In this document: positions 1,764 to 37,031 of the stretch, one piece after another | Layout: each line of letters begins with the position of its first letter | Numbering within the stretch: position 1 is the stretch's first letter | Assembly (NCBI GenBank): GCA_018700525.1 | Contig: JABITN010000151.1 | Location: forward strand, 1 to 37,031 | DNA length: 37,031 bases | Direction: 5' to 3' | Origin: Opitutales bacterium | Lineage (GTDB): Bacteria > Verrucomicrobiota > Verrucomicrobiia > Opitutales > Opitutaceae | Notes under the pieces: model-generated | What the model saw: only the letters and a program-made list of their open reading frames with translations | Told to the model about the DNA's origin: nothing | Database searches by the model: none | Translations under genes and position numbers: made by a program

Positions 1764-4505
1764 TCAAGCCTTTTTCGATGTTAAAACCGTGGACTTAGCT
1801 CGGTTACCATTCCACGCAGTCGCTATAATTATCTCGTCCACATCGATATCAGCCAATCCGATTGGCAAAACTTGCCCCTTCCCACCACTTCGTGTTGCCC
1901 GGATTGGGCGACCATCACGGGTAGTAAAACGGACATCAGCATTTGCCAGCGTATTGAACGCTGGTAGCCTTGAAAGCGCTATTCGTCCCGTGTTCGAAGC
2001 CGACGTTTCCAAAGCTGAACCTCCACGAGGGGCATCCTCTGGTCCGTCAATCAAATTCCGTACGCGCAGTCCTATCGCTGGATCCTTTGCTTGTGGATCG
2101 AATTCCATTTCTAAAAAATTCCAATAGAACGGATCACCCTTACCCTGTTGATCGAGCTGAGGGTTTCGATGCGTTTTATGATAGAGTGCATGCATCTCCA
2201 ACTCTCGACCATCCACATCTTGCATCCGTGGGCCGAACCCAGGAATCACCGCTCGTCCGCCACTCCGACCAATCGGCCCAAAGCTGCATTCAATCACATT
2301 GTGCTCAAGGTTCTTCATAATACTGCCATTGTGGACGTCTCCATAGACAGTCACCACGCCATCGCGCGACCCCAACAATTCCAATACACGATCAGAACCA
2401 GCCTTGACCCACCCTGCGTAATCCGCGGTTACACGATCGCGCTGATCGAATTTCATCGGATGTTTCGCGCTAGCGGCAGCTCCGGTCCAAACCGTATGCA
2501 TACCATTGATGCCCGTCAGACAAATCAGTTTCGAAGAATCCGTCGCGATCAATTCCTGCAACCACGCGAATTGCTCCTCGCCGAGCAGGCTTCGCGTGGG
2601 ATCTTTGCGATCGTAAAGGCTCTTAAACGCATCCCAACCCGAGTCATCCCAAATATCGACATCCTGAGAACTCCGCCACAGCCGCGAATCCAGAATGGCC
2701 AAGGTGAAATCGCGATTCGGCATTTTCCAAGCACGCCATTTTTTCGGATTCGCAACCGGATCAACGTATTCAGCGCCCGTTACTAAATGGTGCACAATTT
2801 GAAAGTTCCGCTTCATGTAGGAGGTATCCTGGCCCAATCCTTCCACTGTTCGAATAATGATTTGCTCGGGGCCCTTAACATCGTCCATCCCGTAATCATG
2901 ATCGCCAGGATTAATCACGTTCCAGTGACGCATGCATTGCCAACGACTCGCCGGGCCGCAAATGGAATTTTTTATCACCTTGTACGCATCGTCCGTACTA
3001 GGCGGATACAAAGACAACTCCATATACCAGACATCATCTTCCCACACCATCACTTGAAAATCATAGTCTTCAAGGTGCTGATACGCGCCCTCGGTCGGTT
3101 GATCTCGAAATTGCCACTCCGCACCACCACCCAGGATCTGATAGCCTTCGGGAGTTTTCTTTTGAAGCCCGCTAGTCAGCGCATGACAACTCAGCCCGCA
3201 TAGCTTATACGGAGCAGCAAGCCGAGGAAGTCGTCCCGCATAACCACCGGATTTCGGCACATCTCCGACTAACCCCGTTCCTGGGCCAACCGCCGAAGAA
3301 CCAATTCGTGGATCAGTCGTAACGTTCTGACCATCTTTCCATACAGTGTAGTACAAGGTCTTTCGGTTCGGCGACTCAGGTAGAACCACATCGATAACCG
3401 CAGTGTTACGTCGAAAATCATTATTCACGATAGTCCCCGCCCCTGCTACAGGAACCGATGCCCACCCTTTTTTAGGGTTCTCCGTATCCGCAACTCGAAT
3501 AGCAGCTTCCTTACCGTCTTGATCGAAGATCCCGACAAACCGAACAGACCACTTGCCATCCTCCTGATTCAATGTCTCCCCGAGAGGATAACACACTAAA
3601 CACTCCGTGTGTCCCGCTTCGCTTCGCTCGCAATCAATCGCTGATACATTAAACGCATTCACTTCGAAATCGATCGTTCCTCTTCCTACAACGCCAACGT
3701 ACCCCTCTGTCGCGTTCGTGGCCATCTCCTCTTTTAGCTTCACCGACTTCCCTTTTGCCTTCAAAGTCGTCTCGACGACACTCTTTCCATTCGAACTCGG
3801 CTTCACAACCAAGCGAATCTCCACTTGATCGCCTGGCGACAAGCTAGGTGCCTTCACTCTAAAAACGGCGCCTGTCGCAGCTTTGCTGCCTGCTCCCTTT
3901 TTCGCGCGAATCAATTCCAAGTTCGGCTTATCCGACCAAACAACCTGATGAGCTTGAGCAATCTTTCCATAGCTCTCGAAGATAGACTTCGCCCCAAAGG
4001 CGATCCCCAAATTGCCGTATCCCTTTTCGAACATTTTCCACGTCGTCGAATCCCCATCTTCAGGCTCCGTTCTATCCGCAATGTACGTGAACTCTGCACT
4101 CACTTCATAAGCGCCCGAGAGGCTCCAATCATTCCTGTAGAGGATTCCAACTGGGAGCGAAGGATCATACTCCGTTTCCATCTTTTTCCCAGCTGTCATC
4201 GAATGAAACGGAAAACCAGTTCGACGCGCCCGATCACCCACATTCTTCAGGCGCCTCCGCAACGCTCCTCCTTTCAACTGCCAATAACCGGGATTCAACG
4301 ACTCCCACCCCGACCCGACACTTAGACTGTCAGTATTTCCGAATACATAACTTGCTACTCGATTTCCAGTCTCCGAAGCCGCTCTCGCAGGAAGAGCGTT
4401 TGATAAGGCCATCGCCCCAACCGCACTAGCGCTTGTGGCGATAAAGTCTCGACGATTGAGTCCTTTGCTTTGCGAGGGTTCATTGAAACGAGATTCTTTA
4501 GACAT
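1764..4505 (-). CDS. Tat-exported PhoD-like metallophosphatase with N-terminal accessory domain
   Basis: Large exported protein (913 residues from the ATG at 4505). The frame also stays open upstream to a GTG at 4556, but the ATG places the Tat signal normally. A twin-arginine motif (LNRRDFIA) is followed by an Ala-rich hydrophobic stretch ending in ALPARAA. The first roughly 270 residues look beta-rich (jelly-roll or laminin-G-like, inferred). The C-terminal half has PhoD-type metallophosphatase features: GDHDYGMDD near mid-protein, LDSRLWRSS, and GDVHNG near residue 722. Known PhoD enzymes are Tat-exported, metal-dependent phosphodiesterases or phosphomonoesterases; the substrate here is unknown. 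It is followed closely by the sulfatase, which suggests joint removal of charged ester groups from an external substrate. Confidence 0.85.
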   Translation of the reverse strand: MSKESRFNEPSQSKGLNRRDFIATSASAVGAMALSNALPARAASETGNRVASYVFGNTDSLSVGSGWESLNPGYWQLKGGALRRRLKNVGDRARRTGFPFHSMTAGKKMETEYDPSLPVGILYRNDWSLSGAYEVSAEFTYIADRTEPEDGDSTTWKMFEKGYGNLGIAFGAKSIFESYGKIAQAHQVVWSDKPNLELIRAKKGAGSKAATGAVFRVKAPSLSPGDQVEIRLVVKPSSNGKSVVETTLKAKGKSVKLKEEMATNATEGYVGVVGRGTIDFEVNAFNVSAIDCERSEAGHTECLVCYPLGETLNQEDGKWSVRFVGIFDQDGKEAAIRVADTENPKKGWASVPVAGAGTIVNNDFRRNTAVIDVVLPESPNRKTLYYTVWKDGQNVTTDPRIGSSAVGPGTGLVGDVPKSGGYAGRLPRLAAPYKLCGLSCHALTSGLQKKTPEGYQILGGGAEWQFRDQPTEGAYQHLEDYDFQVMVWEDDVWYMELSLYPPSTDDAYKVIKNSICGPASRWQCMRHWNVINPGDHDYGMDDVKGPEQIIIRTVEGLGQDTSYMKRNFQIVHHLVTGAEYVDPVANPKKWRAWKMPNRDFTLAILDSRLWRSSQDVDIWDDSGWDAFKSLYDRKDPTRSLLGEEQFAWLQELIATDSSKLICLTGINGMHTVWTGAAASAKHPMKFDQRDRVTADYAGWVKAGSDRVLELLGSRDGVVTVYGDVHNGSIMKNLEHNVIECSFGPIGRSGGRAVIPGFGPRMQDVDGRELEMHALYHKTHRNPQLDQQGKGDPFYWNFLEMEFDPQAKDPAIGLRVRNLIDGPEDAPRGGSALETSASNTGRIALSRLPAFNTLANADVRFTTRDGRPIRATRSGGKGQVLPIGLADIDVDEIIIATAWNGNRAKSTVLTSKKA

Positions 4506-4584
4506 AAAATTATAGTTGGGGGTTCGAATACATATTTGCGCCCTAATTTCGGACACGGGCTTGCTTCGCTTAAGAATGACCGAA

Positions 4585-5862
4585 CTAACCAGCCATTCCT
4601 TGCATGAGTTTCACGAAGGGAAGGAATAGCGAAATCGCGATTAGCAAAACGCTTACCGCCAAAAATAAAATCAGTATAGGTTCGATAATAGCGGTAACTC
4701 CCGAAATAGAGGCATCCACTTCCTCGTCAAAAATATCAGCAATCTGGTTGAGCATATTTGGCAACTCGCCAGTCTCCTCGCCAACCTCGACCATACTCGA
4801 CACCATTGGTGGAAATAATCCCGTCGCCGCAATTGGTCGAGCCAGTGGTTCGCCATCTCGCACGCGATTGCGTACCTTATCGATCGCCGTCATTATAAAT
4901 TGGTTACCAATCGAATCTCGAGAATAATTCAAAGCCTCCAATATTGGTACGCCGCTTTCCAGCAGCGTACCCAGAGTCCGGCAAAATCGAGATATATACA
5001 CCTTTGAAAACGTATCCTTCAACAAAGGCGTATGCAATTTCATATAACTAAAAAACAATCCCCCGACCTTAGTAGCCCGAAAAACGAGAAACCCCACCAA
5101 GGCCACCGCCACAACACCTCCGACAAGCGACGCATGGGATGTGAGCACGCTGCTTATCACCATCACAATTCGAGTAAGCTCCGGCAATTGCTCGCCATTA
5201 AGTTGCTTATCGAAAATCTCCGCGAACTTCGGAACGACAAACGTCATCAATCCCAAGACGATCAACGACGAAAAAGCGAACACGACCACCGGGTATATCG
5301 ACGCCTGTGTCACTTTCGAACGAATCTGACGGGCCTTATTCAAATAGTGAGCCAAACGTCCTAACGCCATATCCAATGTACCGCTCGCTTCGCCGGCCTT
5401 GACCATATTCATGTAAAGCGTGTCAAATTCCTTGGGAAATCGCGACAGCCCTTCGGAGAAGGTATTGCCCGTGCGGATATTGTCTAGCTGCTGACTCAAT
5501 ACCCATTTGAATGCTGGATTGCGCTCCTGAGCGACCAATACCTCGAGGCTCTTGATCAGAGACAAACCATTTTGCAACAAAGTCGAAAGTTGCCGCGTAA
5601 AGATCGACATTCCCTTCCCGTTAATCGCTGCTCCAAAATAAGCAGGTTTCTTCACGATCTCGTGAGAATCTCCCCTGACCTGCAACGCTCCGCCCGAACC
5701 GCGTTTTGCACTTAGCGAGCCTACCTTGACAGGCTTCACTTTCGCCGGAGTTAATCCGTAGCTCTTGATTTGCGTAGACGCCATCTCCCGATTAGGAGCT
5801 TCTACCATCCCGCGGCGTTCCTCACCCGCACTGTCCACTGCGATAAATTCGAATTTCGGCAT
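4585..5862 (-). CDS. gspF: Type II secretion / type IV pilus inner-membrane platform protein GspF/PilC
   Basis: A 425-residue polytopic inner-membrane protein of the T2SS/T4P platform family. It begins with MPKFEFIAVDSAGEE, typical of GspF, and contains two repeats of the T2SSF fold. The first has FTRQLSTLLQNGLSL and MVKAGEASGTLD, and the second has FCRTLGTLLESGVPI and MVEVGEETGELP. Hydrophobic segments lie near residues 193-213 and 246-260 and at the C-terminus. In this machinery GspF couples the cytoplasmic ATPase GspE to pseudopilus or pilus assembly. It starts 7 bases after the gspE stop, so the two are clearly an operon. No pseudopilin, secretin or GspG-M genes are in the window, so T2SS versus pilus assignment stays open. 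Confidence 0.93.
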   Translation of the reverse strand: MPKFEFIAVDSAGEERRGMVEAPNREMASTQIKSYGLTPAKVKPVKVGSLSAKRGSGGALQVRGDSHEIVKKPAYFGAAINGKGMSIFTRQLSTLLQNGLSLIKSLEVLVAQERNPAFKWVLSQQLDNIRTGNTFSEGLSRFPKEFDTLYMNMVKAGEASGTLDMALGRLAHYLNKARQIRSKVTQASIYPVVVFAFSSLIVLGLMTFVVPKFAEIFDKQLNGEQLPELTRIVMVISSVLTSHASLVGGVVAVALVGFLVFRATKVGGLFFSYMKLHTPLLKDTFSKVYISRFCRTLGTLLESGVPILEALNYSRDSIGNQFIMTAIDKVRNRVRDGEPLARPIAATGLFPPMVSSMVEVGEETGELPNMLNQIADIFDEEVDASISGVTAIIEPILILFLAVSVLLIAISLFLPFVKLMQGMAG

Positions 5863-5869
5863 AAGTCGA

Positions 5870-7555
5870 TTACGTATACCGTATCACCTCTTCGATCGAA
5901 GTGACACCGGTAAATATGCTTCTTAGTCCATCTTCTCTCAAAGCCAGCATTCCTTGCTCGATCGCCCGCTCGCGAATAATGCTCGCCGGACGCCCATCCG
6001 CAATCAGCTCTCGAATCGGTTCGGTAATCTCCAACATCTCGAAAACCCCCAAACGCCCCCGATAACCCGTGTCCGCGCAAACCGCACAACCAGTCCCTGC
6101 ATAAAATTCTTTATTGAGCAACAAAGCGGGGTCCAGCTCCAACTGATCGATCAAGGCAACCGAAGGAATATACTCCTTACGGCAATCGACACACAAGCGA
6201 CGCAAAAGCCGTTGCGCAAGAACCGCCTCGACCGAAGACGCGATAAGAAATTCCTCGATCCCCATATCCATCAAGCGAGTAATCGCTCCCGCTGAATCAT
6301 TGGTATGCAAAGTGGTTAGCACCAAGTGTCCCGTCAGCGATGCTTGGATAGCGATTTGAGCCGTCTCAAGATCGCGAATCTCACCCACCATTATGATATC
6401 CGGATCCTGCCTTAAAAACGCCTTCAAGGCATCGGCAAAAGTCAGGTCAATCGACGAATTAATCGCCGTCTGCATAATCCCATCTATCTCGTACTCGATC
6501 GGGTCCTCAGCAGTCATCAACTTCGAACCCACCTGGTTCAATCGCTTCAAGCAGCTATATAAAGTCGTTGTCTTGCCTGATCCCGTTGGACCGGTTACGA
6601 TAAAAATACCATTCGGCCGATCGATGACTCGTTCGACGGACTCCACTATTTCAGTCGGCATCCCGATGCTACTCAAATCCAGCGTCGTTGCGGTCTGGTC
6701 TAAAACCCGCAACACCACGCTTTCTCCAAACTGAGTCGGCAAAGTGGATATACGCAAATCAACCGCACGACCGGAAACCGTCAGACGAACCTTACCATCT
6801 TGAGGCACCCGACGCTCGGCAATGTTCAGATTGCCGATTACCTTAATCCGAGAAGTAATCGGAATAGCCAGCTCTCTCGGCGGAGGCGACATCTCGTACA
6901 GTGCTCCATCGATACGATAGCGAATTTTGAACTCCGTATCGAAAGGCTCGAAATGAATATCCGAGGCCTTGTCCTTGATTGCCTGTGACAAAACCAGATT
7001 GACGAATCGAATAATAGGGGTCTCACCCGCCATATTGAGAAGGTCTTCGACAGACATGTCATCGACTTCTCCATTAACATAGTCGACCTCCTCCAATATT
7101 CCCAAATAGTCCGCATCCCCTAACCGATAGTAAACATCCAAAAGTTCTTGAACCGTTCGCGGATCGGCAACTTCGATTCGCGCATCCTTACCCACAGCAA
7201 AGCTCAAGTCGTCGATGATCTGACTATCGAATGGATCTATCGCTATAAACAGGATCCCCGTATCCAAAGACTCGATAGGCACAACTCCATACATTCGGGC
7301 CAACTTAACATCGATCTCTCCGATAACATGACTCGGAATCTCCAGAGGCTCATTCTCACAACGCTCCAAACCCAGAAAATTAGCAACGCGATCCAACAGG
7401 ACATCTCGAGCAACGTGACCTTGATCGACAAGTAGACTTGCCACTGATCGACTCAACTCCTCGGACGACCTTTGCAAGTTCGTCAATATAGAGTCCTCTA
7501 CCAAATGATAAGACCGGCAAAGACCGATAATCGCTGCATTCCGGGAATCAAACAT
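5870..7555 (-). CDS. gspE: GspE/PilB-type secretion ATPase
   Basis: Hexameric AAA-type ATPase that powers type II secretion or pilus extension, 561 residues from the ATG at 7555. An in-frame TTG at 7567 is an alternative start. An N-terminal T2SSE domain (about residues 50-150) precedes the motor. The Walker A motif GPTGSGKT is near residue 322 and Walker B DIIMVGEIRD near 387. A histidine-bearing stretch LTTLHTND follows. The zinc tetracysteine has CVDC near 455 and CAVC near 490, which is characteristic of GspE/PilB. The start lies 4 bases beyond the FMN-reductase stop and the end 7 bases before gspF, so all three genes are probably translated from one message. Confidence 0.94.
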   Translation of the reverse strand: MFDSRNAAIIGLCRSYHLVEDSILTNLQRSSEELSRSVASLLVDQGHVARDVLLDRVANFLGLERCENEPLEIPSHVIGEIDVKLARMYGVVPIESLDTGILFIAIDPFDSQIIDDLSFAVGKDARIEVADPRTVQELLDVYYRLGDADYLGILEEVDYVNGEVDDMSVEDLLNMAGETPIIRFVNLVLSQAIKDKASDIHFEPFDTEFKIRYRIDGALYEMSPPPRELAIPITSRIKVIGNLNIAERRVPQDGKVRLTVSGRAVDLRISTLPTQFGESVVLRVLDQTATTLDLSSIGMPTEIVESVERVIDRPNGIFIVTGPTGSGKTTTLYSCLKRLNQVGSKLMTAEDPIEYEIDGIMQTAINSSIDLTFADALKAFLRQDPDIIMVGEIRDLETAQIAIQASLTGHLVLTTLHTNDSAGAITRLMDMGIEEFLIASSVEAVLAQRLLRRLCVDCRKEYIPSVALIDQLELDPALLLNKEFYAGTGCAVCADTGYRGRLGVFEMLEITEPIRELIADGRPASIIRERAIEQGMLALREDGLRSIFTGVTSIEEVIRYT

Positions 7556-29617: not shown

Positions 29618-29702
29618 GCTCAGGTGGTGGAATTGGTAGACACGCACGCTTGAGGGGCGTGTGCCGAAAGGTGTAAGGGTTCGAGTCCCTTCCTGAGCAC
29701 CA
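29618..29702 (+). tRNA. tRNA-Leu (anticodon GAG)
   Basis: Cloverleaf of 85 bases with a perfect acceptor stem, GCTCAGG (29618-29624) with CCTGAGC (29692-29698), discriminator A and an encoded CCA (29700-29702). The anticodon stem CACGC/GCGTG encloses the loop TTGAGGG, anticodon GAG, which reads CUC/CUU leucine codons. The long variable arm expected of a class II tRNA is present. The T-loop GGTTCGAGTCC is canonical. Confidence 0.97.
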
Positions 29703-29710
29703 TTAAAAAT

Positions 29711-29737
29711 AGACCGCATTGCGTGGTCTTTTTTTTT
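29711..29737 (+). terminator. Intrinsic terminator of tRNA-Leu
   Basis: AGACCGC (29711-29717) pairs with GTGGTCT (29723-29729) through seven base pairs, one of them G-U, around a five-base loop, followed by a long T-run to 29737. It begins eight bases after the encoded CCA. Confidence 0.9.
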
Positions 29738-29771
29738 GCCGATAGCCAAGACTAACAGAAAAAGCGACACG

Positions 29772-29963
29772 CTATGATACTTTCTTCCTAGTCGAATATT
29801 CTGATGGCCTAACTCCGAATTCCTTTTCGAACATCCGACTACAATAGCTTTGGTCCAAAATACCGACCTTTTGCATAAATTCGGCTACCGAGCTTCTGAC
29901 GAGAGGATTCGGGGCCAAAGCCGTCGCTGCCTTATGTTTTCGATACGAAGGAGTGCGGCTCAT
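29772..29963 (-). pseudogene. Remnant of an AraC-family regulator (C-terminal helix-turn-helix only)
   Basis: A 63-codon frame whose second half matches the C-terminal AraC/XylS helix-turn-helix: SSVAEFMQKVGILDQSYCSRMF, then EKEFGVRPSEYSTRKK. Intact regulators have two such helix-turn-helix units plus a 150-200-residue sensing domain, all absent here. In the same frame an upstream TAG lies seven codons before the ATG at 29963, and I could not recover the missing part in the other frames. It is best read as a truncated, decayed regulator beside the tRNA gene. A tiny functional DNA-binding protein is possible but unlikely. Confidence 0.7.
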
Positions 29964-30426
29964 GGATGAACTACTTATCGCCTAAAAAGCGGACGAGTTC
30001 CGCCGCCTACCTATAAAGAGTGCTTGCAAAGGATTTCTCAACTCCTAACGAACGCGTATATACTATCGTTTGAGGATTAGATTTCTAGTCCCCAAATTCA
30101 ACACTGAAAACAATGAACTAGAGGAGCGGGCGAAGCCAGCTCTTGTGGCAAGGCAAGCATTGCCTCAAAAAGTAGGATAAACTCGCTAGAAAGCTTTAGC
30201 TTATTCCATTAACCATCGTTGAGCGGCCAAACCAAATTCATGCCGAAAACCTGTCAAAACAGGTCCGACAGTTCCCCAACCTCTTTCGCTTGAAATATGC
30301 GGTTGCCAAGACCCTGATCACCAGATTCTACTCCTCGCTAATTATCATACCGGCACACTCCATCGACCGATAATCTCCCCAATAGTGCTTACGGATACCT
30401 GCTTCGTTCTACGGAGCGATCAATGA
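29964..30426. other. 463-base stretch without a gene; several small hairpins
   Basis: No convincing coding frame on either strand. It holds an imperfect hairpin at 30124-30142 (GAGC-G-GGC / GCC-A-GCTC around GAA) and a perfect one at 30151-30165 (AGGCAA/TTGCCT). Another is ACCTGT-CAAA-ACAGGT at 30249-30264. The first two resemble dispersed extragenic palindromes. Reverse-strand translation around 30215-30300 gives a short protein-like run broken by stops, which I could not assign. The 3' end carries GGAG (30413-30416) before the GDPD start. Confidence 0.6.
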
Positions 30427-31269
30427 ATGCTGCGAAATGCTCATATGACCAAATTAACAAATTTTTCCACCACCCTCATTATCCTCATAGCCAGCTTCAC
30501 GACTTACGCCGTCGAACCCATAATCGTCGCCCACCGTGGAGCATCCAAGAATGCTCCTGAAAACACAATACCGGCATTCACTCTAGCATGGGAGCAAGGC
30601 GCCGATGCGATCGAGGGCGACTTTCACCTAACTCAAGATGGGGAAATCGTATGTATCCACGATAATAGCACACTAAAAGTGTCAAAAAGAGACTTCATCG
30701 TTAAAGAGACGCTTTTGGAGGATCTGCGCAAACTGGATGTAGGACGATATAAAGGCAGGAAGTTCACGGGAACCTTAATTCCAACAATTGCAGAAGTATT
30801 CGCTACAATTCCAGATCAAAAACAAATCTATATTGAAATCAAGAGCGACGAATCGATCGTTCCCAAACTAGTCGAAGAAATAAAAAATTCGAGTCTCCAT
30901 ATCGAACAGGTAACAATTATTTCGTTCAACGGAAAAGCTATTCAAGCATTCAAAGCCGTCGCTCCACAGTATAGGGCCTTGTGGTTGTCGAGCTTCAAGA
31001 AAAAAGAATCCGGGGAACTGATTCCCTCAGTTGATTCAGTTTTAACAACCTTGAGACAGATTAAAGCTGATGGTTTCAGCTCCAATAAAGACCTCATTGA
31101 CGAATCGTTCATCAATACCCTCACTGCAAGGGGATACGAATATCACGTATGGACCGTAGATAAACCCAAAACAGCCAAGCGCTTTAAAAGCTGGGGAGCA
31201 AAATCTATCACCACGAACACCCCAGGTTACATAATAAAGAAGCTCGCCGCAGCAAAAAGACCGCATTAA
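30427..31269 (+). CDS. Exported glycerophosphodiester phosphodiesterase
   Basis: 280 residues with a signal-peptide-like N-terminus (hydrophobic ~residues 13-28). GDPD enzymes split glycerophosphodiesters into sn-glycerol-3-phosphate and an alcohol. The catalytic set is intact: H36-R37 in VAHRGASKNAPENT, E63 and D65 in IEGDFHLTQDGE, H78 in CIHDN. IYIEIKSDE supplies a further metal ligand and YHVWTVDKP closes the barrel. GGAG at 30413-30416 precedes this start; an ATG six codons in (30445) is the alternative. Its TAA stop shares the palindrome TTAA with the stop of the convergent DUF1223 pseudogene. Confidence 0.9.
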   Translation: MLRNAHMTKLTNFSTTLIILIASFTTYAVEPIIVAHRGASKNAPENTIPAFTLAWEQGADAIEGDFHLTQDGEIVCIHDNSTLKVSKRDFIVKETLLEDLRKLDVGRYKGRKFTGTLIPTIAEVFATIPDQKQIYIEIKSDESIVPKLVEEIKNSSLHIEQVTIISFNGKAIQAFKAVAPQYRALWLSSFKKKESGELIPSVDSVLTTLRQIKADGFSSNKDLIDESFINTLTARGYEYHVWTVDKPKTAKRFKSWGAKSITTNTPGYIIKKLAAAKRPH

Positions 31270-32002
31270 CGGCTTTTCAGCCATCCACCTGTTGCCTGAA
31301 GTAGCACAAGCGAGTTCTTTTCCATAACCCATGCAGCAATCTCGTAGCGGCTATTTTCGTAGGATTAGACCGAAGGAATGGCCCCTCCCATCCATCATCT
31401 CCAGCTGAAAATGTTCCTTGCCCCAGAACGACAAAGGATTGCTTAGGATCTCGATTTTGACTCTCCCCTTTCGTTACACGCACTGTCAGGTTTATTCACA
31501 AGACAGCCACCTGTAGAGCTTGTCTGTCACGAAATTCAGAAAACGAAGCTCTTAGTTTTCCATCCTCCACAACCACAGCGAGGTTTCCTACTTTAGACTC
31601 CTCTGCCAGTAGATCCGATAGCTCGAACCAACCTCGTCATTCTTTCCCATTTAAAACGAGACCAGGAGTGTACACCGATGCTACCTCACCCCTTTTTCGA
31701 TGCGCATACTGACGAATAGTATTTTCGAATAAAGCGAATGGATCCTTCCATTCAAGGCGATCCCATTAGTCGACATGAAACACGACCGGTACAACTTCGA
31801 CCCACAATCGCTCATCATTCTCAAAGCCGTTGATCCAATGTTCAGCAGGAGGACAACGGCTACAACCTTGAGAGCTGTACTTCTCCAGAAGACCCATTCG
31901 GTTTAACCCGCTTTCGAAACGCTGTTCCTCGCCATCCGCAACAACTCTGGAAATACCCGCAAAAAGCCAAATAGCGATTAAAAGACTCCACTTCCAAATC
32001 AT
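31266..32002 (-). pseudogene. DUF1223-family (thioredoxin-like) pseudogene
   Basis: Minus-strand relic of a secreted DUF1223 protein. From the ATG at 32002 it has a signal peptide (MIWKWSLLIAIWLFAG) and the family motif YSSQGCSRCPPAEHW. VPVVFHVD follows, where the family's next residue (Tyr) is a TAA (31766-31768). In the same frame WDRLEWKDPFALF, IRQYAHRK and VYTPGLVLNGKE continue to a TGA (31637-31639), where Trp is expected. A second TGA at 31496-31498 precedes INLTVRVTKGE. After KIAATR near 31341 a one-base shift restores IAAWVMEKNSLVLLQATGG, ending at TAA 31266-31268. Three nonsense changes and one frameshift make it dead, yet almost the full length survives, so decay is fairly recent. 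Confidence 0.87.
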
Positions 32003-32105
32003 CGGACCAAATAACGAGCCGTAAGCTCCAAAGCATGCAGAAAACTCCTTACTGCAACAATTCCTTGAATTCACGTTCGAGTTGCGATTTACCTGTCTTC
32101 CCGTA

Positions 32106-33488
32106 ATGGATACTCACTCGATCGTTCAGGAACTCATCGCGCTCCTCGGCCAGGAAAGCGTTCTCACAAAAAAGGAAGATCTCATTTGCTATTCCTTCGA
32201 TGGCACCGCCTCACTAAAATGCATGCCACTTGCGGTTGTGTTCCCAACAACCACTCAGGAAGTTTCCGTAACCATTCAACTCGCCTCGAAACACCAGGTC
32301 GGTATATCCACACGCGGTTCCGGAACCGGATTAAGCGGCGGGTCAGTACCCGCTGAAAATAGTATCGTTATCGCTACCGGTAGAATGAATCGGATTCTCG
32401 AATACGACCAAGAGAACCTGACTTTGCTCGTTGAACCCGGCCTTGTAACAAATCGCATTAGTGAGACGGTCGAAGCTGACGGCCTTTTCTACCCACCCGA
32501 CCCAAGCTCCATGAAAGTATCGACTATTGGCGGCAATGTTGCCAATAACTCGGGTGGATTACGCGGATTGAAATACGGGGTAACTCGTGATTACATAATG
32601 GGCTTAGAAGTCGTTCTGGCAAACGGCGAAATCGCATGGCTTGGCAGTAAATGCGTTAAAGACGTCGCAGGCTACTCGTTAAAAGACCTCTTCATCGGTA
32701 GCGAAGGCACTCTCGGCATCATAACGAAGGTCCTCTTGAAACTCATCCCAAAACCAGAAGCTCGCAAAACGTTGCTGGCCTTGTACGATTCAATGGATGA
32801 TGCTGCTGCAACCGTTTCGAAAATCATCTCTTCGAAGATTATTCCCTGCACGCTGGAATTCATCGACCAATACACGCTTCAATGCGTTGAAGACTTCGCT
32901 CAGATTGGTTTACCTACCGATTGCGGAGCCGTTCTCCTCATGGAAACCGATGGCTTTCCTGCTCAGGTCGAAAGCGAGACCGAACAGATGAAATCTATCG
33001 CACTCGAAATGCGGGCTCGAGAAGTCCGTATCGCCGCGACCAAAGAAGAAGGGGTTGCTTTAGCTACCGCCCGCCGATCTGCATTTGCCGCAGTAGCTCG
33101 TATCCGCCCAACCACTATTTTGGAAGACGTTACCGTACCGCGTGACAAACTAGTTGAGATGACGCAATTCGTTCGAGAAACCGCCGCACGACATAATGTA
33201 AGAATAGCCAACTACGGCCATTTCGGCGACGGCAATCTGCACCCAACCATCCTCGCAGATGAACGCGATGAAGAAGAAATGAAACGCGTTCACCATGCAA
33301 TGGACGACTTGATCACAAAAACGATTGAGTTAAAAGGTACTATAACCGGTGAGCACGGTATCGGACTCGCTAAAAAAAAGTACCTCAAGGAGCAGTTCCA
33401 AGATCATAGCTACGAATTGCTCAAACTCGTCAAACGCTCATTCGACCCCAACAACCTGCTCAACCCAGGCAAAATTTTCGATGCCTGA
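32106..33488 (+). CDS. glcD: FAD-linked glycolate/D-lactate oxidase subunit (GlcD-like)
   Basis: 460 residues from the ATG at 32106; the frame runs back to a TTG at 32082. It has a PCMH/VAO-type FAD-binding domain with VVFPTTTQEVSVTIQLA, STRGSGTGLSGGSVP and PPDPSSMKVSTIGGNVANNSGG, and KYGVTRDYIMGLEVVLANG. The FAD-oxidase C-terminal domain has YGHFGDGNLHPTI and GTITGEHGIGLAKKKYL. It oxidises a 2-hydroxyacid, most likely glycolate or D-lactate, passing electrons to the partner Fe-S subunit. The stop overlaps that partner's start by eight bases. GlcE is not present in the window. Confidence 0.92.
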   Translation: MDTHSIVQELIALLGQESVLTKKEDLICYSFDGTASLKCMPLAVVFPTTTQEVSVTIQLASKHQVGISTRGSGTGLSGGSVPAENSIVIATGRMNRILEYDQENLTLLVEPGLVTNRISETVEADGLFYPPDPSSMKVSTIGGNVANNSGGLRGLKYGVTRDYIMGLEVVLANGEIAWLGSKCVKDVAGYSLKDLFIGSEGTLGIITKVLLKLIPKPEARKTLLALYDSMDDAAATVSKIISSKIIPCTLEFIDQYTLQCVEDFAQIGLPTDCGAVLLMETDGFPAQVESETEQMKSIALEMRAREVRIAATKEEGVALATARRSAFAAVARIRPTTILEDVTVPRDKLVEMTQFVRETAARHNVRIANYGHFGDGNLHPTILADERDEEEMKRVHHAMDDLITKTIELKGTITGEHGIGLAKKKYLKEQFQDHSYELLKLVKRSFDPNNLLNPGKIFDA

Positions 33489-34779
33489 AGACGCACCATC
33501 CCTACGCCTTCAATCCCTTGATTACTCGGTCCTGCAACAGTGCATGCACTGTGGTATGTGCCTACCAACCTGCCCCACCTACGACACGACCGGAATAGAA
33601 ACGAACAGCCCTCGCGGCCGCATCTCGTTAATGCGAACAATCGCCGACGGCGAACTCGAGTTGAGCAAAACGTTTTCCGATGAGATGTACTACTGCCTCG
33701 GCTGCTTGGCGTGCACTTCCGCCTGCCCCGCCGGAGTCGACTACGCTCATATGTTCGAAGCTGCGCGTGCCGATATCGAAGATCACCAATTACTCGATAC
33801 ATCGGAACGGCGATTCTGGCGATCGTTGAGCGTAAAGTTCATTTTTATGCGTCCAAAATGGTTGCGATTTATCGGCAGCTCAATGCGCTTCTACCAACAA
33901 TCCGGCCTCCAAAATCTTCTAAGGAAAATCGGCTTCATGAAACTCCTGCCAAAAAACCTGCAGGAACTCGAGCCCATGACTCCCACAATTCAAGATGCAT
34001 TCACCGATGAAATCGTAGCCGAATTCGAATCCCCCGCATCGACTAAGCCCACCTACAAAGTTGGGATGCTCAGTGGCTGCGTTCAGGATATCGCTTTCAG
34101 CGACGTCAATCGAGACACAGTAGACGTCCTGCTTGCCAACAACTGCGAAGTTATAACTCCCCGCAACCAAGGTTGCTGCGGATCCCTCCATTCGCACAAC
34201 GGTGAAATTGAACTAGCCAAAGACCTCGCCCGCAAGGCCATTGACAGCTTCGACCTGGACAAGCTCGATGCAATCATATCGAATGCTGGCGGTTGCGGCA
34301 GCCATCTTCGCCACTACGGGCGTTTACTGTCCGACGATCCTCAATACGCAAAACGAGCTCACCAATGGGACTCCAAGGTCAAAGATATTCATGAATGGTT
34401 AATGAGTATCGATCTTCGAGAACTAGGTCCGTTGGCTACACCCGCCGAAATCACCTACCATCCATCATGCCATCTCTATCACGGGCAAAAAGTCATGAAG
34501 CAACCTTCCCAGTTACTTGCTAGCATTCCCAACGTAACGCTTAAAGTTCTAAAGGAGGCCGACTGGTGCTGCGGCAGCGCTGGTGTGTACAACATTACCC
34601 AGCCCGAACAAGCTAAGCTTCTCCAAGATCGTAAAGTTGACAACATCAAAGCAACCGGCTGCAAGATCGTCGCAACCTCGAATCCCGGTTGTCACTTGCA
34701 GATCCAAAACGGCCTCGGCTCGGACTACTGTGTCCGCCATCCCATTAGTATCCTAGCCGAAGCCTACCGGAATACCTAG
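33481..34779 (+). CDS. glcF: Iron-sulfur subunit of glycolate/lactate oxidase (GlcF-like)
   Basis: 432 residues from the ATG at 33481. The upstream in-frame extension lies inside glcD and is not family-like. Two 4Fe-4S ferredoxin motifs are complete: C21-x2-C24-x2-C27-x3-C31 (CMHCGMCLPTCP) and C72-x2-C75-x2-C78-x3-C82 (CLGCLACTSACP). Two CCG domains follow: GCVQDIAF...GCCGSLHSHNG and YHPSCHLYHGQ...DWCCGSAGVYN. CCG domains bind a non-cubane cluster in related proteins. It transfers electrons from the flavin subunit towards the quinone pool. The eight-base overlap with glcD implies coupled translation. Confidence 0.93.
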   Translation: MPEDAPSLRLQSLDYSVLQQCMHCGMCLPTCPTYDTTGIETNSPRGRISLMRTIADGELELSKTFSDEMYYCLGCLACTSACPAGVDYAHMFEAARADIEDHQLLDTSERRFWRSLSVKFIFMRPKWLRFIGSSMRFYQQSGLQNLLRKIGFMKLLPKNLQELEPMTPTIQDAFTDEIVAEFESPASTKPTYKVGMLSGCVQDIAFSDVNRDTVDVLLANNCEVITPRNQGCCGSLHSHNGEIELAKDLARKAIDSFDLDKLDAIISNAGGCGSHLRHYGRLLSDDPQYAKRAHQWDSKVKDIHEWLMSIDLRELGPLATPAEITYHPSCHLYHGQKVMKQPSQLLASIPNVTLKVLKEADWCCGSAGVYNITQPEQAKLLQDRKVDNIKATGCKIVATSNPGCHLQIQNGLGSDYCVRHPISILAEAYRNT

Positions 34780-34802
34780 AGCACCAAAAAACCAAATACC
34801 CC

Positions 34803-35570
34803 ATAAAATATTTATTCACTCTCGCTTTTTTTATCTATTTTTCCACTCACTTTCTACGCACTCAGGAGCGCCCCAATATACTAATCATCTTCACCAATGA
34901 ACAAGGCTACGGAGATGTAGGATGCTATGGTAACGAAAACCTCTATACGCCACGATTCGATCAGCTAGCAAAGGAGAGACCACGTTTCACTAATTTTTAC
35001 GCTCAACCGATATGCGACCCTTGACGCTCTGCCTTGCTAGCAGGAAGGTATCCTCCCCGGAGTGGTCGATTCGGCATGCCCTCATCAAAAGTTACGCTTG
35101 CTGAACTAATCGGAACCGTCGACTACCAAACCGCCTGCATCGGGAAATGGGACGTTTCGAATCGCAGACCTATCGTTGATCGTATGCCCAACGCAAAGGG
35201 GTTCGACTACTACTTTGGAGGCTTCGGGACCAACGATGAAGACAAAATCAAATTCCATGAAAACAATGAAGAAGCGGATGAAACCCTAGACATGCCTAGC
35301 CTAACTCGAATGTTTACAAACAAGGCAATTCACTATCTATAAGTACACCGCGATCCTTCTCGTCCATTTGTTCTCTACCTTGTTCGTACAATGATGCATG
35401 CCGTGGTGGATGTTTCGCCAAAATTCAAAGGCAAATCGAAATCAGGCCTCTTTGGCGACTCGGTAGAGGAATTCGATTACGAGACCGGACGACTTCTCGA
35501 CACACTCGACGCCCTTAGCCTTCGCGTAAATACGTTCGTCATATACACATCAGACGGTAACCCACATTAG
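34803..35570 (+). pseudogene. Truncated sulfatase pseudogene
   Basis: One continuous plus-strand frame reads a signal peptide (KYLFTLAFFIYFSTHFL), ERPNILIIFTNEQGYGDVG and YTPRFDQLAKERPRFTNFYAQPICDP. The stop TGA (35022-35024) then falls where the Ser of the C-x-P-S-R sulfatase signature should be. It continues RSALLAGRYPPRS, TACIGKWDV and KGFDYYFGGFGT. A TAA follows (35340-35342), then RPFVLYLVRT, DVSPKFKGKS and TFVIYTSDG, ending at TAG 35568-35570. The initiation codon position holds ATA (34803). The usual C-terminal ~150-200 residues are absent. The product would have been an arylsulfatase-like S1 enzyme of a different subgroup from the one at 146. Loss is certain. Confidence 0.88.
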
Positions 35571-35572
35571 GA

Positions 35573-36991
35573 ATGAAACAGCTGACCCTTATTCTAATCG
35601 TCCTTCTAATTCCCTTTAGGGTTTTCAGCAGCAGTTCCCAGGACTCGATCTTCGATATGGACGAGATTCGCGATGCCAGTACGCTTAAATCGGAAATCCT
35701 TCAGGATTGGCACATTGTCAATGGCCTTGTTTCTACACGCCAAAAATCCATAACGATAAGCGTAGGTGAGCTCTGGCCGGGGCGGGATCTCCGTATCCCC
35801 GTCCGTTTCATCGTACCAGTCAACGGAAAGGCAAAGGGTTTCCATCTAACTGGTGGACACAATCTCAAACAATTCGAAAGCGACACCGCAATCAGGGGCG
35901 TAGACATAGAGCTGATCAAGGGTGGAATCGGCTTGGTTCACACAATTGTTCAAGAACCAAGAACCTATGGAGAAGGTGACTTAGGAAAGCAGATGCGTGA
36001 TCGGTTTATAGATACACTCGAAACGCGTTATTCAATCCAATATTGGGGTTGGCCCGCCATTCTCATGCGAGCCACTACGGCAGCCTACGCCGAAAGCCAT
36101 TACTTCGAAAGAGGGAAAATAGCCCTCTCTGGCGGTTCGAAAAACGGAGCATCACCTGCCGTCGCCATTATAGTCGATACTCGTCTTTCTGCTCTACACG
36201 CTAGCGTCTCCCCCCCATGGGAATCCCCCCTTCGACTCTGCGACCCGCAAGCATGGGAGGCATTGAATACGTACAACCAAAACGATCCCGATTTTAAACC
36301 ACATAATTTTCTAGGCGGAACATTCGGACCTAGCTACACTAAAGAAGCAATTGCTGCCGGACACAACTGGGAAAACATCCGAAAACTAGCGAACCGAATA
36401 TCCGATCAAATATTCATATCTCGAAACCTCACTCAGCTTGCCAATCGAAACGTCGACCTCCTATTTCACCCTGGAACCCACGACATGGTTGCCTACGACC
36501 TCTTTTGGGGTGGAAGCCATTACCCTCAAATCCCAACCTATCTTCGAATAAACTCCGGACATGGCAAAAAACATCGCCCCGACAGCGCCGAACTAAAAGA
36601 GCAAAACCTAACAGCTTTTCTTCTCAATCATTTTTTTGGCGGCGAACCCTTGCTAGAATCGCCAAAGGTTTCGTATCACAGAGATAATAACGCGATAAAC
36701 ATAACCGTTACCTTCGAGCCCGATTCCCACGAAGAAAGCGGACGCATTTGGTGGATGTACGACCGGGGCCCCGATGGGAGCTCAGCCTACATCCGAGAAC
36801 TCTTTCCAGAAAAACAATGGAAAGACATGGAACCCGGTCAACAGCCAGCCACGTGGACCACTCAAATCGAAATTGAATCAGGCGCGACACACATCGACTT
36901 CTTCACGAATCACCTCAAAACAATCCACCGCGAATCGAACACCTACCCCACGTATATTTCAAGTCCATATAATCGAATAAACTTGAAATGA
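35573..36991 (+). CDS. Secreted alpha/beta-hydrolase, PhoPQ-activated (PqaA)-like
   Basis: 472 residues with a signal peptide (MKQLTLILIVLLIPFRVFS). The nucleophile region is IALSGGSKNGAS with S189 in a G-x-S-K-x-G context, like the GASKRG motif of PhoPQ-activated pathogenicity-related proteins. It is preceded by YWGWPAILMRATTAAY and followed by VDTRLSALHASV, in the same order as that family. Possible acid and histidine lie in FHPGTHDMVAYD and INSGHGKKH. A C-terminal beta-sandwich-like part ends the protein. Function is unproven; an esterase acting on external carbohydrate or lipid is inferred. It begins two bases after the stop of the sulfatase pseudogene, so it once formed an operon with it. 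Confidence 0.75.
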   Translation: MKQLTLILIVLLIPFRVFSSSSQDSIFDMDEIRDASTLKSEILQDWHIVNGLVSTRQKSITISVGELWPGRDLRIPVRFIVPVNGKAKGFHLTGGHNLKQFESDTAIRGVDIELIKGGIGLVHTIVQEPRTYGEGDLGKQMRDRFIDTLETRYSIQYWGWPAILMRATTAAYAESHYFERGKIALSGGSKNGASPAVAIIVDTRLSALHASVSPPWESPLRLCDPQAWEALNTYNQNDPDFKPHNFLGGTFGPSYTKEAIAAGHNWENIRKLANRISDQIFISRNLTQLANRNVDLLFHPGTHDMVAYDLFWGGSHYPQIPTYLRINSGHGKKHRPDSAELKEQNLTAFLLNHFFGGEPLLESPKVSYHRDNNAINITVTFEPDSHEESGRIWWMYDRGPDGSSAYIRELFPEKQWKDMEPGQQPATWTTQIEIESGATHIDFFTNHLKTIHRESNTYPTYISSPYNRINLK

Positions 36992-37031
36992 ATTCATCTT
37001 CATAACGTATCCAAAAACACCTATTATTTTC

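Follow-up and report, generated by a model that had tools for sequence, protein, structure and literature searches.

What lies behind a tRNA-Leu(GAG) gene in an uncultured member of the Opitutaceae: the ruin of a single genomic island, a spot of ordinary gene loss, or a patch put together piece by piece? We analyzed a window of 37,031 nucleotides (contig C169, positions 1 to 37031, of genome G000, a draft of 4.80 Mb in 268 contigs) and compared it with the rest of a genus set of 11 genomes (G000 to G010) and with two genomes outside the genus, G018 and G022. A scan with the 644-aa protein encoded on the left flank of the tRNA gave matches at five loci, in MAGs of Opitutaceae, Opitutales and Verrucomicrobia. 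The decay zone past the tRNA is real and fairly ordinary. We consider a mosaic accessory patch likely, one that is eroding gene by gene at a tRNA locus prone to rearrangement.

Relics and intact genes past tRNA-Leu(GAG)

The zone and its borders hold the following features.

29618..29702, plus strand: tRNA-Leu (GAG), CCA encoded (ARAGORN and Rfam); left border of the zone
29772..29963, minus strand: 63-aa remnant of the C-terminal part of an AraC-type regulator, with an incomplete HTH (Pfam HTH_18 at E 1.2e-5, under the cut-off)
29964..30426, no strand: non-coding stretch without a Pfam match in six frames; folds no better than shuffles
30427..31269 (start may be 30445), plus strand: intact GDPD-family gene (Pfam GDPD, E 5.7e-39)
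31271..32074, minus strand: DUF1223 pseudogene whose homologous part has three in-frame stops and no frameshift
32082..33488 (start probably 32109), plus strand: glcD-like FAD-linked oxidase subunit, open (Pfam; NCBIfam glcD, 516 bits)
33484..34779, plus strand: glcF-like iron-sulfur subunit, open, overlapping glcD (Pfam; NCBIfam GlcF, 261 bits)
34806..35572, plus strand: sulfatase pseudogene, two in-frame stops, C-terminal part lost; intact 435-aa homologue in G003
35573..36991, plus strand: intact gene for 472 aa that falls in no named family; its DNA is 91.6% identical to G008
36896..37031, no strand: 136 bp identical to the first bases of contig C95, also of G000

An earlier note on this DNA had picked out three relics past the tRNA, and profile searches together with in-frame stops bear it out. 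The DUF1223 relic, the only copy found in G000, carries its stops at 31768 (TAA), 31639 and 31498 (both TGA) in a single minus-strand frame; with the stops read through, it matches profile positions 1-167 of 202 with an E value of 1.4e-28. The sulfatase relic runs in one frame from 34806 through stops at 35022 (TGA) and 35340 (TAA) and has lost its 3' end; read through, it covers profile positions 1-240 of 301 (E 1.4e-31). Since each keeps one frame with stops and no frameshift, an assembly error would be an unlikely source of either. Both thus match their families clearly (Sulfatase, PF00884; DUF1223, PF06764), with homology running on through stops or deletions, but they are broken here whereas congeners have intact relatives. 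The AraC stump is the weakest of the three: it is short, scores 25.9 bits against a Pfam cut-off of 33.6, and covers profile positions 32-79 of 80. No further AraC parts were found in the three minus frames of 29705-30426.

The same note had described an empty 463-base stretch with hairpins. The emptiness holds, with no Pfam match; the hairpins are no better than chance would give, the fold having a z score of -1.31 and being equalled by 9 of 100 shuffles. Compared with the whole genome, 29500-30600 had no matches except two further tRNA genes.

How unusual is the clustering? DNA outside intact genes, with relics counted as such, makes up 32.6% of 29703-36991 to the right of the tRNA and 7.7% of 146-29414 to its left, the latter an overestimate that leaves two small intact genes uncounted as genes. 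The right side is thus about four times as dense in such DNA. That the other 29 kb contain no relics, as had been stated, is likely: the two largest gaps on the left contain small intact genes (DUF6172, 95 aa; a rhodanese ORF, 117 aa), a third was checked on one strand, and three more lie outside the check. The probability of finding all three relics in the zone is 0.008, and about 0.08 for any 6-kb span (a scan bound). Hence, the clustering exceeds chance only modestly, which is one point in favor of ordinary local gene loss with the tRNA nearby by coincidence.

The other rival reading is a single genomic island, integrated at the tRNA and now decaying, whose integrase and far border are gone. 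Tests for the marks of such an island gave mostly negative answers. The tRNA-Leu at the left end is intact, as a regenerated gene should be, a weak sign since any intact tRNA qualifies. Across the window and C95, a reach of about 30 kb to the right of the tRNA, no 12-base piece of the tRNA's last 30 bases recurs exactly, which argues against a single island, and an ungapped search for tail copies against shuffled DNA found nothing in G000. Nor does an integrase family appear among the zone's four intact genes or 10-11 genes of C95, searched up to its last ~6 kb. That neither was seen in the window had been noted before, and these results agree with it; the suggestion to look for them beyond 37031 led, within C95, to neither. 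Composition is not foreign. The window's GC minimum, about 0.45, falls at 29.5-31.5 kb; tetranucleotide distances in the zone reach a z of at most 2.3, under the largest value of the left part, and codon use is inside the range of left-part genes. The codon and k-mer plots that had been recommended therefore place the zone within the left-part range, again in disfavor of a single island.

The same tRNA locus in relatives

The 644-aa gene and tRNA-Leu(GAG) occur together in eight other genus genomes (G001, G003, G004, G005, G007, G008, G009 and G010) and also in G018 and G022; no 644-aa gene was found in G002 or G006. Past the tRNA, G003 is alone in having matches to the window longer than ~50 bases among the eight other genus loci compared, two of which (G001 and G004) end less than 650 bases past the tRNA and one of which (G008) is partly unreadable there. 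The site thus has other content in relatives.

In G003, GDPD (75% nucleotide identity), the start of glcD (79%) and the sulfatase (72%) follow the same tRNA in the same order; for reference, the stretch with the core 644-aa gene is 81% identical between the two genomes. A frameshift and a cut at ~123 aa have broken glcD in G003; the sulfatase there is intact, and no match to glcF was found on that contig. With a broken glcD and a whole sulfatase in G003 and the reverse in G000, decay has gone separately in the two lineages. Against the intact G003 gene, the sulfatase relic differs by 0.23, 0.14 and 0.55 at codon positions 1, 2 and 3. It thus keeps codon periodicity: the break came late, and constraint acted on the gene through most of the interval after the two lineages parted. 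The G003 zone contains neither DUF1223 nor the AraC stump, and 3.5 kb of other DNA separates its tRNA from GDPD; only part of the patch is thereby shown to be old.

Inserts of unequal length sit behind this tRNA elsewhere in the genus, because a shared gene (ThuA-type by Pfam in G007) lies 1.4, 6.4, 14.8 and 50.5 kb from it in G005, G007, G010 and G009, respectively. The G009 insert (L086-L097) is a prophage. It has a GpA-type terminase beside the tRNA, tail genes and an integrase that matches phrog_1 (E 5.6e-16) but nothing in Pfam, and 47.7 kb from the tRNA 26 bases of the tRNA 3' end recur without a mismatch. We conclude that tRNA-Leu(GAG) is an attachment site in the genus. An integrase-bearing prophage bounded in this way at the same tRNA speaks for a single island in G000, and a used integration site speaks against mere coincidence of tRNA and gene loss.

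Two other loci have features of their own. Behind the same tRNA in G007 (L083, ~2800-6260), a DUF1501 gene missing the first 63 profile positions and overlapping frames look broken, perhaps another decay site. In G010 (L084), six genes in a row, each encoding 501-531 aa and several of them with similar starts, occupy 2.0-11.7 kb past the tRNA, between it and the gene common to G005, G007 and G009.

The comparison with related strains, which the earlier note had called for, thus gave a divided answer: G003 shares the order of part of the zone, the other congeners that could be judged differ, and synteny is poor on both sides of the tRNA. To the left, the gene order shared with G007 and G010 extends over four genes only. 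Since synteny is lost on the left too, variability on the right does not set the tRNA apart, and this favors local gene loss.

Separate gene histories and the right border

Do the genes of the zone share one history? GDPD is under purifying selection, with a dN/dS of 0.15 against G003, and occurs at 58% identity or more in 5 of the 11 genus genomes (G000 plus G003, G004, G005 and G006, with orthologues at 58-73%). An orthologue of glcD exists in only 2 of 11, G000 itself and G003 with its frameshifted, truncated stump; elsewhere in the family, seven genera have relatives of it at 59-63%. A glcD tree run to find the origin of glcDF settled none of its 8 inner branches. As in the GlcD/GlcF 2-hydroxy acid oxidase genes (TIGR00387, NF008434), FAD-linked and iron-sulfur subunits are encoded by overlapping genes; unlike them, the window's pair misses the curated equivalog cut-offs (516 against 568 bits for glcD, 261 against 333 for GlcF) and has no adjoining glcE-like third gene. 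Such patchiness of zone genes across the genus would suit a single island.

DUF1223 does not. It gives a single match in each of 8 of the 11 genus genomes and none in G003, G005 and G008. The copy is near-full and free of stops in G002, G004, G006, G007 and G009, shorter and free of stops in G001, and interrupted by stops in G000 and G010. In G002, G004, G007 and G009, a frame of 428-448 aa resembling the sulfatase genes of the window and C95 adjoins it, and no GDPD or glcD match lies within its 1.5-kb flanks. DUF1223 is thus a genus-native single-copy gene that is located elsewhere in relatives, which counts against arrival in one island.

The 472-aa gene came by yet another route. It is 91.6% identical to DNA of G008 over 1356 bases (35642-36997; L154), a match that stops six bases past its stop codon. 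Its dS against G008 is 0.30, whereas silent sites of the 644-aa gene are saturated between these two genomes. The 472-aa gene was therefore exchanged horizontally between distant congeners; this separate arrival is likewise at odds with a single island. The 78 bases across the join of the sulfatase relic and the gene (35504-35581) are 79% identical to G008, which would be near what neutral change leaves at that distance. The structure model of the protein is poor (mean pLDDT 62.8), and its weak match to a CE15 esterase (E 4.6e-4, TM-score 0.20 by query) gives a weak hint of a possible CE15-esterase-like fold.

Beyond the overlap, C95 continues with an intact sulfatase, SOD, a KamA-family gene and carA. 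We found kamA in all 11 genus genomes, and SOD adjoins it in 9 of 10 relatives, the G003 piece ending before SOD. Through the C169-C95 join, SOD-kamA-carA lies ~9 kb right of tRNA-Leu; in the single-contig genomes G007 and G010, the distance is ~549 and ~272 kb. The zone marks a rearrangement point, provided that the join, one contig overlap in a 268-contig draft, is correct. Misassembly may have produced the join. For the zone itself we rejected it: no contig boundary falls inside the zone, and several of its parts follow in the same order in G003.

Like the tRNA-borne genomic islands and prophages of the Islander definition (PMC4383910), the zone stands directly behind a tRNA used by a relative's prophage and carries accessory genes. 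Unlike them, it has no integrase or displaced tRNA fragment that we could find, and its genes have separate histories. We therefore regard one decaying island as improbable. Ordinary local gene loss strikes us as unlikely too, since the zone's genes are accessory or of differing histories. The description offered in the earlier note survives in part: patchy glcD and GDPD, the order shared with G003 and the separate decay bear out "accessory," "old" and "eroding," but not a single two-ended island.

We favor instead the mosaic accessory patch. In what we take to be the most likely course of events, peripheral genes (GDPD, the glcDF-like pair and the sulfatase) stood behind tRNA-Leu before G000 split from G003, its nearest sampled relative, as their shared order shows. 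The genus-native DUF1223 gene now sits among them, and the 472-aa gene was exchanged later with the lineage of a distant congener, as its low silent divergence shows. Unneeded genes then gained stop codons or deletions lineage by lineage (seen in the sulfatase and DUF1223 here and in glcD in G003), with GDPD staying under selection meanwhile, as its dN/dS indicates. An integrated element may first have brought genes to the tRNA; it is possible that a tRNA-targeting element started the patch. Some of the relics could equally be local gene loss with no mobile history.

Repeats behind tRNA genes in the genus

In G007, G004 and G022, a repeat of ~110-150 bp follows tRNA-Leu(GAG), and its final 14-19 bases repeat the tail of that tRNA, with one mismatch in G007. 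A search with a pattern for the repeat body, allowing one mismatch, found it in 13 of 57 relatives, which are G022, G029 and every one of the 11 genus genomes; the reversed pattern, used as a control, never matched. Five genomes in a phylum-wide draw of 387 match the pattern, all within the 13. The 46 matches are 44 distinct sequences (L127, L129, L175-L220), with a single copy in G000 (L181). The pattern had no exact match in viral contigs.

A tRNA gene (Leu, Ser, Val, Glu, Gln, Asn, Pro or Tyr) lies at most 700 bases upstream on the same strand of 31 of the 44. Five of the other 13 have less than 700 bases of upstream sequence; eight have more than 1 kb and no tRNA, which argues against a strict bond to tRNA genes. 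Among 30 repeats with a tRNA within 200 bases, 21 carry a copy of their own tRNA's tail scoring at least 14, whereas pairing with tRNAs of other kinds gave such a score in 7 of 812 comparisons. Ahead of the body, 19 of the 30 have an inverted T-arm copy that scores at least 10; the corresponding control count is 47 of 812. Seven of 23 copies with a tail score of at least 12 also repeat 26-45 bases of post-tRNA DNA, the rest scoring at most 8 in a comparison run without a shuffled control. The consensus fold of a 40-copy alignment is nearly empty, and we accordingly claim no RNA structure.

Perhaps, then, these repeats of ~100-150 bp are a new kind of element that copies the tail of the adjoining tRNA (from T-loop to CCA, at times with the terminator) together with an inverted T-arm; we put this forward tentatively. 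We found no description of the family in the open-access literature, a body from which most subscription journals are missing, and the search is weak evidence of novelty. We know of no mechanism for a small repeat tied to the duplicated tail of many tRNA kinds.

The window's own tRNA-Leu has no tail-copy repeat. That repeat insertions and phages destabilize tRNA loci and seed zones like the one in the window is thus only an idea.

For this uncultured genus of the Opitutaceae, the zone means that peripheral genes gather and decay beside a phage-used tRNA, two lineages breaking different genes of one set. The repeat family, if it holds, would matter more than the zone itself.
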